A stretch of 64,000 nucleotides of DNA from Paludibacteraceae bacterium. GTDB taxonomy: Bacteria > Bacteroidota > Bacteroidia > Bacteroidales > Paludibacteraceae. The stretch's first letter is position 1; the number at the start of each line of letters is the position of its first letter. The translations under genes were made by a program, and so were the position numbers. This document shows positions 27,242 through 64,000 of this stretch, in pieces. The stretch covers positions 26,735 through 90,734 of the forward strand of contig JAKSNP010000009.1 in the NCBI GenBank assembly GCA_024399655.1. Reading direction: 5' to 3'. The notes under the pieces were generated by a model that saw only the letters and a program-made list of their open reading frames with translations, was not told where the DNA came from and did not search any database.

Positions 27242-29184
27242 TATTTGTCGAGTTGTTGGTATATTGAGTTGTTGCTGATAAATTCAGGAACAAGTTGTTT
27301 CATAAGTTTAACCGTAAGAAACGGCTGGTTGTGAAAACTGGTTTCAATCAGCTGATTGATTTTTTCGTTTGCCGTGATATAATCAACTTCTCTTACTCGT
27401 GCCTTCATGATTTTTTCGTTACGCGTAGGTATAGTTGTTTCTTTTTGATTGAGAAGTTCTTCGTATAATTTTTCTCCAGGCCGTAGTCCTGTGAACACAA
27501 TCGGAATATCGACATCGGGCGTGAACCCCGCCAAGCGAATCATGTTTTTAGCCAAGTTGAGAATTTTGACAGGTTGTCCCATATCAAAAACAAAAATTTC
27601 TCCTCCATCTCCTAAAGTGGCAGCTTCAAGCACTAAACAGCAAGCCTCGGGAATCGTCATGAAATAACGGATAATCTCGGGATGCGTAACCGTTACCGGT
27701 CCTCCGGCAGCAATTTGTTTCTTGAAATACGGAATCACACTTCCGTTTGACCCCAGGACATTACCGAAACGGGTCGTGATAAATCGCGTGCAGTCGGCAT
27801 CTTGTTGGTGGAGATGACGGAAAAGGGATTGCACATACATCTCGGCAATGCGTTTGGAGCATCCCATGATATTGGTAGGATTGACTGCTTTGTCGGTAGA
27901 AATCATTACAAAGCGTTGTGCTCGGTATTTAACGGCCATATCAGCCATGTTCTTAGTTCCTAATACATTGGCGTGAATAGCCTCATTGGGATGATCTTCC
28001 ATCAGAGGAACATGTTTGTAGGCAGCAGCATGGAAGACGATATCCGGTTGGTATTCATTGAATATTTCTTCAATGCGCTCGCGTTCTCTTACATTGCCGA
28101 TAAGCGGAATCAAACGAGCATCGGGATATTGATGCCTTAATTCAAGCGTCAAATCATGCAAGGGAGATTCGGCTTGTTCCACTAAAATGACGGCTTTGGG
28201 CCGGAAAGTGATTACTTGTCTGACTAATTCGCTGCCAATACTTCCGGCAGCTCCTGTTACCAAAATGATTTTATCGTTAAGGGTGCGATTGACATTTTCC
28301 GTATCAATCTTAATAGTGGGGCGTTCCAGCAGATCTTCAATCTGGATTGCATCGATTCGTCCGATTTTTTCACGATCTGCATCCGCACTGAACTCGGTGA
28401 AGGTAGGAGTACTCAATACTTTGATGTTGTTTTCCAAAAAAACGGATACATCTTTGCTTGGGTTAATCTCCCGTAATTTGAGCGGGGAAATAATCACATG
28501 TTCCACATGATTGGCTTTCATCCAAGAGAAAAGATGCTCGTTAAGCGGGAATACATGAAGGCCGATCAATCGATATTTGCGTCCGTTCTGTTCGTTGGTA
28601 ATAAAACCTACGGGGTGATATGGTGTGTTGCCGGAAGAAATAAGCATCTTTGCGATGGCTAAACCGGCGGATTGAGTGCCATAGATGAGTACTTTGGGAC
28701 CGGCGACTGAGGCTTGTCGGATGGTCTCGTAAATCGTTTTGATACCTACACGCAAACAGAAGAGAAGCAGAAAAGCGACAAAGATATAGATAATCAAAAC
28801 GGTGTTGAGCATGAGCCGATTGGATGTGCAACCAGTCCAAATTACATTAAAAATCAAGAGTGACGAGCCTGTTACGAAAACGGCGAGCAATGATTTGATT
28901 GTATCAACAAATGTGGAATATCGTAAGATTCCGGCGTATGTATGGAAAAGCCAAAAACATGAAATCTGCACAATCATAACCACTATATATTGCTCCCAAA
29001 TAGGCATTTGCATCGCTTCGGGATGGTAAACAAATAATCCGTTCCCAATCCAGATGCTGAACCAAAATGCTAAAGTGCATAATACCAGATCTAATATCAG
29101 TACGCTCCACCTCGGCAAATATCGCATAGACGATAAATGGGAGAATATGTCAGATTGACGTAATATTTGTAAATCGTATTTCAT
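27241..29184 (-). CDS. CapD/WbpM-like membrane UDP-sugar 4,6-dehydratase/epimerase
   Basis: About 647 residues: four N-terminal membrane helices, a CoA-binding-like Rossmann segment, then an extended SDR domain with VTGAAGSIGSELVRQV (NAD binding), HAAAYKHVPLMEDHPNEA, and TDKAVNPTNIMG, in which the SDR tyrosine position is replaced as in WbpM/FlaA1-type dehydratases. Probably converts UDP-GlcNAc to a 4-keto-6-deoxy sugar for surface glycan. A frame with an earlier start at 29253 would run into uvrA; MKYDLQ at 29184, 11 nt after the uvrA stop, is preferred. Confidence 0.9.
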   Translation of the reverse strand: MKYDLQILRQSDIFSHLSSMRYLPRWSVLILDLVLCTLAFWFSIWIGNGLFVYHPEAMQMPIWEQYIVVMIVQISCFWLFHTYAGILRYSTFVDTIKSLLAVFVTGSSLLIFNVIWTGCTSNRLMLNTVLIIYIFVAFLLLFCLRVGIKTIYETIRQASVAGPKVLIYGTQSAGLAIAKMLISSGNTPYHPVGFITNEQNGRKYRLIGLHVFPLNEHLFSWMKANHVEHVIISPLKLREINPSKDVSVFLENNIKVLSTPTFTEFSADADREKIGRIDAIQIEDLLERPTIKIDTENVNRTLNDKIILVTGAAGSIGSELVRQVITFRPKAVILVEQAESPLHDLTLELRHQYPDARLIPLIGNVRERERIEEIFNEYQPDIVFHAAAYKHVPLMEDHPNEAIHANVLGTKNMADMAVKYRAQRFVMISTDKAVNPTNIMGCSKRIAEMYVQSLFRHLHQQDADCTRFITTRFGNVLGSNGSVIPYFKKQIAAGGPVTVTHPEIIRYFMTIPEACCLVLEAATLGDGGEIFVFDMGQPVKILNLAKNMIRLAGFTPDVDIPIVFTGLRPGEKLYEELLNQKETTIPTRNEKIMKARVREVDYITANEKINQLIETSFHNQPFLTVKLMKQLVPEFISNNSIYQQLDK

Positions 29185-62079: not shown

Positions 62080-62150
62080 TGCCTAATGGTGTAATGGTAG
62101 CACTACAGATTCTGGTTCTGTCTGTCTGGGTTCGAGTCCTGGTTAGGCAA
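62080..62150 (+). tRNA. tRNA-Gln (anticodon CTG)
   Basis: Cloverleaf by eye: acceptor TGCCTAA with TTAGGCA (7 perfect pairs), D arm GTGT/GCAC, anticodon stem ACAGA/TCTGT with loop TTCTGGT (anticodon CTG), T arm CTGGG/CCTGG with TTCGAGT. Discriminator A, followed by CA; full CCA is not encoded. Confidence 0.93.
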
Positions 62151-62174
62151 CAAAGTTTAAAGTTTGACAAACGA

Positions 62175-62247
<73 letters not shown>

Positions 62248-62264
<17 letters not shown>

Positions 62265-62456
62265 GAATCTTAAAATTTGATAGTTTGGACGAGAAATTCA
62301 AACTACAAATTTCAAAATTCAAAAATTATCTAAAGAGGTGTAAATCAAGTACTTACGCCTCTTTTCTTTTTGCCTTTTTTCGCGCTTTTTGGTGTATTTT
62401 GGAGCCTTTTCGGTTAGGTAGAAAAAGCCCCAATCTTAATAAAAATACAACAATTG
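62248..62456 (+). repeat. Left 209-bp inverted repeat (contains tRNA-Ser 3' end)
   Basis: Starts within the T arm of tRNA-Ser and ends at the palindrome CAATTG. It contains repeated TTTCAAA/TTCAAA motifs (62297-62325) and the AT-rich sequence expected of recombinase arm sites. Its reverse complement is 63752-63960. Confidence 0.95.
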
Positions 62457-62497
62457 AGCGACTTTCGAGCGACTGAAAAGAAAAATGGCGAGCGACT
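62456..62497 (+). repeat. Three phased GAGCGACT direct repeats upstream of the integrase gene
   Basis: GAGCGACT at 62456-62463, 62467-62474 and 62490-62497, start-to-start distances 11 and 23 bp, i.e. about one and two helical turns. The last two continue as GACTGAA. A partial copy, AGCGACT, is at 62582-62588 just before the ATG at 62592. Candidate operator or arm-type binding sites. Confidence 0.7.
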
Positions 62498-62555
62498 GAA
62501 TTTGGATTTGTAATAGACTGATGTTCAATACTTTAGATGCTTCAAATAGTCGGAA

Positions 62556-63749
62556 GTGAATTTAAGTTTAACTACAAAAGAAGCGACTATTATGTATCTA
62601 AATTTCATGTGTAGAGCGTCAAAAAGGCGAAAAGATGGTTTATGCCCGCTGGAATTGTCCGTTAGAGTGGGCGAACAAAGAAAAATTATTACTCTTGGCA
62701 GAAATATTAATCCTGCTGACTTCAATTCCAAAAGGCAAAGAGTTCGTAGAGATGAAGAATCGAACAAATTCATAGAGGCAGTCACATCGCGTTTTCGTGC
62801 GACTGAATCTGAAATGTTGGCCAGAAACATACCAATGACGGTAGATAATGTAATTGATATTTTCTATAATGGCATTCAAGAAGCAAGTGTATCTCTCCTA
62901 ACTCTATTTGACAAGCACAACGTCGAGTCCAAAGCAAAAGCTGATCATGGTATAATAGCAAAGGACACTTACCGCAGATATCTTGTCACCCGAAAGTACC
63001 TCAAAAAGTTTATGACAACCAAACTCAAAATTAAGGACATCTTGGTAAAAGATATCACGCCTGCCTTTGTCGAACAATTTTATGTCTATCTCAATGGCTA
63101 TATGGACAGGAACACAGCTAACCATAAGATGAAACAGCTGAAGAAGATCCTTAAGATTGCCCAGGAAGAAGGATATCTACATTCCATGCCGTTTAAAGTC
63201 AAGTTGGTCAATGAAACCTTGCAGTATGAACCATTAACCGTTGAAGAGATTCGTTCTATCAGACAAAAGGAATTTCCTACTGACCGACTGACTCAAGTTC
63301 GCGATGTCTTTGTGTTTGCTTGTTACACCGGTCTTGCATTTACAGATTTATCTACTTTAACTAAGAAGGATCTGCACGTTGATGAGAATGGTAAGGAATG
63401 GATTATTAAGGCCAGACAAAAGACTAAAGTGGTGTCACATATTCCATTATTACCAGTTGCAAAAGAGATATGGGAACAATATCGTTATCGTCTGCCTATG
63501 CTATCTAACCAAAAGTACAATAGTTACCTAAAAGAAATTGCAGATAGTTGTGGTATCAAGAAAGAACTGCATAGTCACTTAGCGCGCCATACATTCGCCA
63601 CTATCCTTTTGAATAGCGGCGTTGACATGGTCTCAGTCAGTAAGATCCTTGGACATTCTACAAGCAGAATCACCGAAAAGACATATGCGCAAATGATGCC
63701 GGGAACAATTATGGACCGCGTTACTGCGGTGGCCGACCAACTGGTCTAA
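62556..63749 (+). CDS. Tyrosine recombinase/integrase (IntDOT-like Bacteroidetes group)
   Basis: 397 residues from a GTG at 62556, or 385 from an ATG at 62592, which sits right at the first strand (MYLNFMCRASKRRKDG). Order: N-terminal Arm-DNA-binding domain (about 10-85), SAM-like core-binding domain (about 105-205), catalytic domain (about 225-390). Catalytic residues seen: HLARH (H-x-x-R, about residue 342), LGHST (H, about 365), and Tyr in EKTYAQM (about 376). Box I reads CYTGLAFTDL, with no Arg after TGL, as in IntDOT relatives. The stop lies 2 bp before the right inverted repeat. Codon usage and AT content differ from the neighbouring core genes, in line with acquisition. Confidence 0.93.
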   Translation: MNLSLTTKEATIMYLNFMCRASKRRKDGLCPLELSVRVGEQRKIITLGRNINPADFNSKRQRVRRDEESNKFIEAVTSRFRATESEMLARNIPMTVDNVIDIFYNGIQEASVSLLTLFDKHNVESKAKADHGIIAKDTYRRYLVTRKYLKKFMTTKLKIKDILVKDITPAFVEQFYVYLNGYMDRNTANHKMKQLKKILKIAQEEGYLHSMPFKVKLVNETLQYEPLTVEEIRSIRQKEFPTDRLTQVRDVFVFACYTGLAFTDLSTLTKKDLHVDENGKEWIIKARQKTKVVSHIPLLPVAKEIWEQYRYRLPMLSNQKYNSYLKEIADSCGIKKELHSHLARHTFATILLNSGVDMVSVSKILGHSTSRITEKTYAQMMPGTIMDRVTAVADQLV

Positions 63750-63751
63750 CA

Positions 63752-63960
63752 CAATTGTTGTATTTTTATTAAGATTGGGGCTTTTTCTACCTAACCGAAA
63801 AGGCTCCAAAATACACCAAAAAGCGCGAAAAAAGGCAAAAAGAAAAGAGGCGTAAGTACTTGATTTACACCTCTTTAGATAATTTTTGAATTTTGAAATT
63901 TGTAGTTTGAATTTCTCGTCCAAACTATCAAATTTTAAGATTCTGGCGGAGAAAGGGGGA
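63752..63960 (-). repeat. Right 209-bp inverted repeat
   Basis: Perfect reverse complement of 62248-62456. It carries a second copy of the last bases of tRNA-Ser, but the tRNA body is missing beyond 63960, so this end is a partial attachment-site copy and not a second tRNA. Confidence 0.95.
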
Positions 63961-64000
63961 CCTATACTCTAGTTGTTGTCATTCCTTTCTAATCCGCTTA

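Follow-up and report, generated by a model that had tools for sequence, protein, structure and literature searches.

The integrase gene near the right edge of the analysed DNA, a 64,000-nucleotide stretch of a Paludibacteraceae genome (hereafter the window), probably belongs to the integrase end of an integrative element that lies in a tRNA-Ser gene and carries its attachment site twice, mirrored around the integrase gene (int). Integrative elements are usually assumed to have a single attP. The evidence comprises the structure of the repeat beside the tRNA, the recurrence of the layout with other repeat sequences at tmRNA genes, the agreement of the two arms within each genome, and a far junction on another contig bordered by the same DNA as the right arm.

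An integrase gene between mirrored repeats

The perfect 209-bp inverted repeat that a sequence-only reading had described around the integrase gene was confirmed. Its arms are 209 nt each, 100% complementary and spaced 1295 nt apart (Table 1); a separate exact-match script returned the same 209, and chance is not the source of an exact match of this length. The left arm begins within the final 17 bases of the tRNA-Ser gene, and the sequence common to this arm and the far junction is 15 bp long (TCCCCCTTTCTCCGC). The element is inserted at the 3' end of tRNA-Ser, and attL restores this end. The same reading had taken the repeats for sites of the attachment type whose core is the end of the tRNA gene, and this view is supported. 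The 15-bp core is also found at attR on a second contig of the assembly (C4).

Table 1. Features of the tRNA-Ser locus in window coordinates; the labels attL, attR and attP follow the reading proposed here.
Feature	Position	Strand	Remark
tRNA-Gln(CTG), neighbour	62080..62151	+	ARAGORN
tRNA-Ser(GCT)	62175..62264	+	ARAGORN
Left arm of inverted repeat (core + element arm; attL)	62248..62456	+	
Core at attL, 15 bp	62248..62262	+	common to attL, attR and second attP
Terminator-like hairpin, left arm; mirrored in right arm	62332..62364	+	-14.1 kcal/mol, z -6.1
Three copies of GAGCGACT between left arm and int	62456..62500	+	by eye
Tyrosine recombinase (integrase), 385 aa	62592..63749	+	Pfam; PHROGs integrase
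Right arm, exact mirror of left	63752..63960	-	
Inverted core of second attP	63946..63960	-	
X, outer half of second attP	63961..64000	-	recurs beside core at contig C4 end (attR)

The terminator-like hairpin of the left arm was equalled by none of 200 shuffles, and strong hairpins (z -6.1 to -6.9) were present in all four arms tested. The copies of GAGCGACT are possible integrase or regulator sites, and short direct repeats between the left arm and int, outside the inverted repeat, were seen by eye not only in the window but also in two relatives described below (L030 and G809). Within the arm, at 62270-62340, the stretch GGACGAGAAATTCAAACT and its neighbours resemble short matches in 48 of 178 genomes of the genus, this one included, and may form part of a genus-wide interspersed repeat. 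Such a repeat was also considered as the origin of the whole inverted repeat and rejected: some 30-50 bp recur in the 48 genomes, the full 209 bp only here.

The integrase likely starts at the ATG at 62592, judging from agreement with the start of a homologue, and its stop codon ends at 63749. Its Pfam domains (Arm-DNA-bind_5, Phage_int_SAM_5 and the catalytic Phage_integrase) give it a likeness to IntDOT, the CTnDOT/IntDOT type of Bacteroidales. In IntDOT, the catalytic Arg I is replaced; the Arg I region, judged by eye, has the residues TGLAFTDL in the window integrase and TGMAYRDM in that of L030.

Recurrence of the layout and identity of the arms

A scan of public genomes returned two loci with one full-length relative, 46% identical, in Bacteroidales bacterium UBA3834 (locus L030; genome G745). 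This integrase lies behind a tmRNA gene, and the inverted repeat enclosing it begins in the tmRNA 3' end and is unrelated to the window repeat. Of its 223 nt, which include a single mismatch close to the outer end, 220 nt match exactly. Searching 190 genomes of the G745 family (1e-70) yielded four matches besides G745 itself. The integrases of G809, G855 and G753 are 46-47% identical to that of the window, and all three are located at tmRNA genes: G809 has an exact repeat of 215 nt, G855 a truncated repeat of 94 nt with one mismatch, its right arm being without core and X, and G753 (47% identical) has no repeat. The integrase of G902 is 35% identical and also has no repeat. The repeat-integrase-repeat layout, proposed from the sequence alone as something to look for at related loci, is therefore found again at tmRNA in G745 and G809 and, truncated, in G855. 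The group of five integrases comprises three with a complete repeat, one with a truncated repeat and one with none, and a second attP is not needed in all of its members, because G753 is without the repeat.

Among 11 integrases at 34-39% identity, none had an exact inverted repeat of at least 20 bp spanning int, the flank before int being short in two of these loci (138 bp in L036 and 758 bp in L035); a tRNA or tmRNA is present in 7 of the 11. Further cases were sought with profile or protein searches, at strict thresholds and in genome draws that may overlap. These covered 101 relatives (1e-60), 393 genomes of the order and 358 of the family (both 1e-75) and, on the G745 side, the family sample above together with 393 genomes of the order (1e-90) and 314 of the phylum (1e-80). 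Under these searches, mirrored repeats were found only in the window genome, G745, G809 and G855, most of the genomes compared being fragmented. Five named records with integrases 34-36% identical showed no repeat, and every match in phage and plasmid records was below 60% identity. Among 81 IMG/VR loci, of which 61 have flanks of 500 bp or more in both directions, a single exact spanning repeat of at least 25 bp was detected, the 38-bp repeat of locus L111, which was judged to be due to chance.

The arms themselves carry a record of shared change. Across the 94 nt of inner arm available on both sides in G745 and G855, eight sites differ between the genomes, and at 8/8 of these the left and right arms are the same within each genome; at a ninth site, the two arms of G855 differ from each other. 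The whole left arms of the two genomes are 89% identical (188/211), and their int genes are also 89% identical (1020/1146), while the G809 arm is 73-78% identical to those of G745 and G855. The repeat thus predates the G745/G855 split and has been homogenised since. From the pattern of sites, conversion or exchange between the arms would suffice for this homogenisation and recombination at the core alone would not, in line with the earlier suggestion that continuing conversion may account for the identity.

The far junction and the proposed arrangement

The right edge of the window is the end of contig C14 (90734 bases), 40 bp beyond the right arm, in a genome assembly of 1.41 Mb that is 75% complete and consists of 14 contigs. 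The last 55 bases of C14, formed by the inverted 15-bp core and the 40 bp of X, equal the last 55 bases of C4 (55/55), and a search with 29 bases of X, allowing up to two mismatches, located them at these two ends and nowhere else; X is absent from all remaining contig ends of the genome. Read from its end inwards, C4 passes from X' through the core into other DNA. In eight relatives from the genus, tRNA-Ser is likewise followed by other DNA, and the sequence past the core on C4 aligns with that 3' of tRNA-Ser in one of them, G089, with a score of 30.5 that none of 2000 shuffles reached, the next-best of the eight scoring 13.5. On account of this alignment, the C4 end is read as the far junction, attR. 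It counts against this assignment that the regulator gene adjoining the junction on C4 had no match near tRNA-Ser in any of the eight relatives. The gene upstream of the window tRNA pair had such a match in two of them (upstream in G089, on the other side in G116); therefore, the genus does not keep a constant order of genes at this tRNA.

If X forms the outer half of an attachment site, the sequence past the right arm would be expected to turn up again at an attR in G745 and G809 as well. This was predicted beforehand, and a second X'-core end was found in both (2/2). Contigs C17 and C35 of G745 begin with identical 25 bases and contigs C145 and C46 of G809 with identical 55 bases, each pair diverging directly after the core, one contig into the arm and the other into other DNA. 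The 11 pattern matches in G745, G809 and G855 consist of these four paired ends, one G745 tmRNA and six matches without X; an exact pattern search of IMG/VR with the X of the window and of G809 gave none. In 3/3 complete cases, then, the sequence past the right arm is present at the end of one further contig, where the same tRNA or tmRNA fragment joins it to other DNA, and a direct copy of the tDNA fragment is present at the far junction on C4 and likewise on C17 of G745 and C145 of G809.

Two observations concern the surroundings of these ends. On C4, from about position 28397 (L005:8398-8550), a degenerate copy in head-to-head arrangement, at a distance of 1.1 kb from attR, combines a core'-X-like stretch (one gapless 45-bp local alignment) with an overlapping core-arm-like stretch; it could be either an old attachment relic or an interspersed repeat, and no integrase remnant was found there. 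On C17 of G745, the first long gene past the attR-type end is a GmrSD-type restriction gene (L062:366-2453).

Since the right repeat continues past the tRNA fragment into sequence that is also found beside attR on another contig, it looks like a whole second attP. The chromosomal order would be tRNA-core-arm-int-arm'-core'-X-body-X'-core-chromosome, in which integration would have divided one attP between attL and attR while the other stayed intact. It weighs against this order that the element's ends are on separate contigs with no contig linking them, and that the body was not recovered. Once excised, the element would form a circle divided by two inverted whole attP sites (X'-core-arm) into an int part and a body part. 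Excision would occur through the integrase recombining attL with attR, and with both of these present the element need not be 'locked' and unable to excise, as had been envisaged earlier. Recombination between the inverted cores would turn either int or the body around while leaving the junction sequences unchanged, integration could take place through either attP, and the arm hairpins may stop transcription on both sides of int. This order would explain why 3/3 contigs with a complete repeat break off 249-265 bp past the stop codon of int and why the G855 contig runs on; 0/12 relatives without the repeat end so close, the distance behind int being at least 553 bp in the fetched loci.

The position of the right repeat only 40 bp from a contig end, shared by the two other complete cases, which also lie at contig ends, would suit a fold-back error of assembly. 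However, other genomes show the same layout with unrelated repeat sequences, and the end of C14 resembles other ends of the assembly, which also share words of 53 to 55 bases, a feature that we infer to be the mark of a word-based assembler at repeat borders. An assembly error is largely refuted by the G855 contig (C35, 26531 bases), in which the junction of int with arm' lies inside continuous sequence that runs 13 kb past int, through a type I restriction-modification operon (Pfam) and on into what we take, from their translations, to be ribosomal-protein and ileS genes. The two G855 arms differ at one site, and the int-to-arm' junction resembles that of L030, with an identical inner border of the repeat. 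A fold-back is thus highly improbable, and the right repeat, flagged in the sequence-only reading as a possible assembly error, is genuine. The same contig, in retaining a right arm without core, could favour an origin of this arm mainly as a copied terminator or regulatory end of int, with an accidental function as second attP, as could the hairpins found in every arm tested. Yet what G855 retains belongs to the inner arm and does not contain the hairpin, and the 3/3 complete copies include core and X, far beyond the needs of a terminator, so that this origin has little to recommend it.

A different question is whether int flips. Inverted repeats enclosing a segment with its own recombinase are present, as in an invertible cassette, and identical inverted cores under one tyrosine recombinase are expected to give inversion; the earlier proposal was that the integrase could flip its own gene as an orientation switch. 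On a reading of this kind in which the body too occurs in both orientations, X would be seen twice without being a repeat. The short direct repeats, present only on the int 5' side, give such a flip a consequence at the attL border: as they lie outside the inverted repeat, it would place them beside the second attP instead of attL, which could be a reason why the orientation of int matters. The gene is nevertheless found in one orientation, directed away from the tRNA or tmRNA, in 4/4 genomes with the repeat, and 3/3 contigs with a complete repeat cross both arms. If the body were mixed, the core is where contigs would be expected to break, yet all three continue into the same X. The contigs crossing both arms suggest a single prevailing orientation of int, as this stretch would probably assemble poorly if the two orientations were both frequent. 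Flipping as a switch is possible but is considered unlikely.

Further observations were made on the same assemblies. At the contig ends of the window genome (L192-L217), C5, C11, C12 and C13 have one word in common and C1, C2 and C12 another, a pattern expected from both termini of an insertion sequence present in several copies. The type I operon of G855 (L060:3245-10304) lies directly behind the truncated right arm, has its hsdM and hsdS separated by a YhcG-type (DUF1016) gene, and may be cargo of the element; no attR core was found behind this operon or the neighbouring genes. Repeats in its hsdS resemble the tmRNA core with two mismatches, perhaps by chance.

Relation to known systems

Two mirrored attP sites under concerted evolution suggest that the second site is used, be it for integration in either orientation, isomerisation, or amplification of the circle. 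The literature searched gave no account of attP copies in inverted orientation on either side of an integrase gene, which speaks only weakly for the layout being undescribed. CTnDOT has a single attachment site. The window element departs from the CTnDOT/IntDOT type in its mirrored attP copies around int, its likeness to that type being judged from the integrase end; no transfer genes were seen, as the body was not recovered.

Short-read assemblies break just past the second attP in such elements. Genomic islands of the Islander type that target tDNA (PMC4383910) resemble the window element in having int beside a tDNA with a restored 3' end and a displaced fragment at the far junction; what sets the window apart is one more fragment, in inverted orientation, together with a complete attP behind int. 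The Islander filter discards fragments opposite to the tDNA (PMC4383910). Elements of this kind are likely to be overlooked, owing to the assembly breaks together with the dropping of opposite-orientation tDNA fragments by a standard island finder (PMC4383910).

Invertible loci of Bacteroidales share with the window a recombinase gene that adjoins inverted repeats (PMC8375218). Those loci flip promoters or surface operons, whereas here the repeats are tRNA or tmRNA attachment sites that enclose the integrase. A closer resemblance in layout is offered by the yeast 2-micron plasmid, which has 599-bp inverted repeats holding FRT sites and undergoes Flp-driven isomerisation and amplification (PMC3147054, PMC6594588). 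Both systems would combine a circle with two inverted target-site repeats and a recombinase gene. The 2-micron plasmid is eukaryotic and non-integrative and the circle proposed here is inferred, making this an analogy of layout, not a membership. By that analogy, the circle might behave in a 2-micron-like manner before re-integration via either attP, with the integrase reversing a replication fork and amplifying the element, or with int and body isomerising, although we consider this doubtful. Of the two sites that such a circle would carry, one is seen whole in the window element and the other as attL plus attR.
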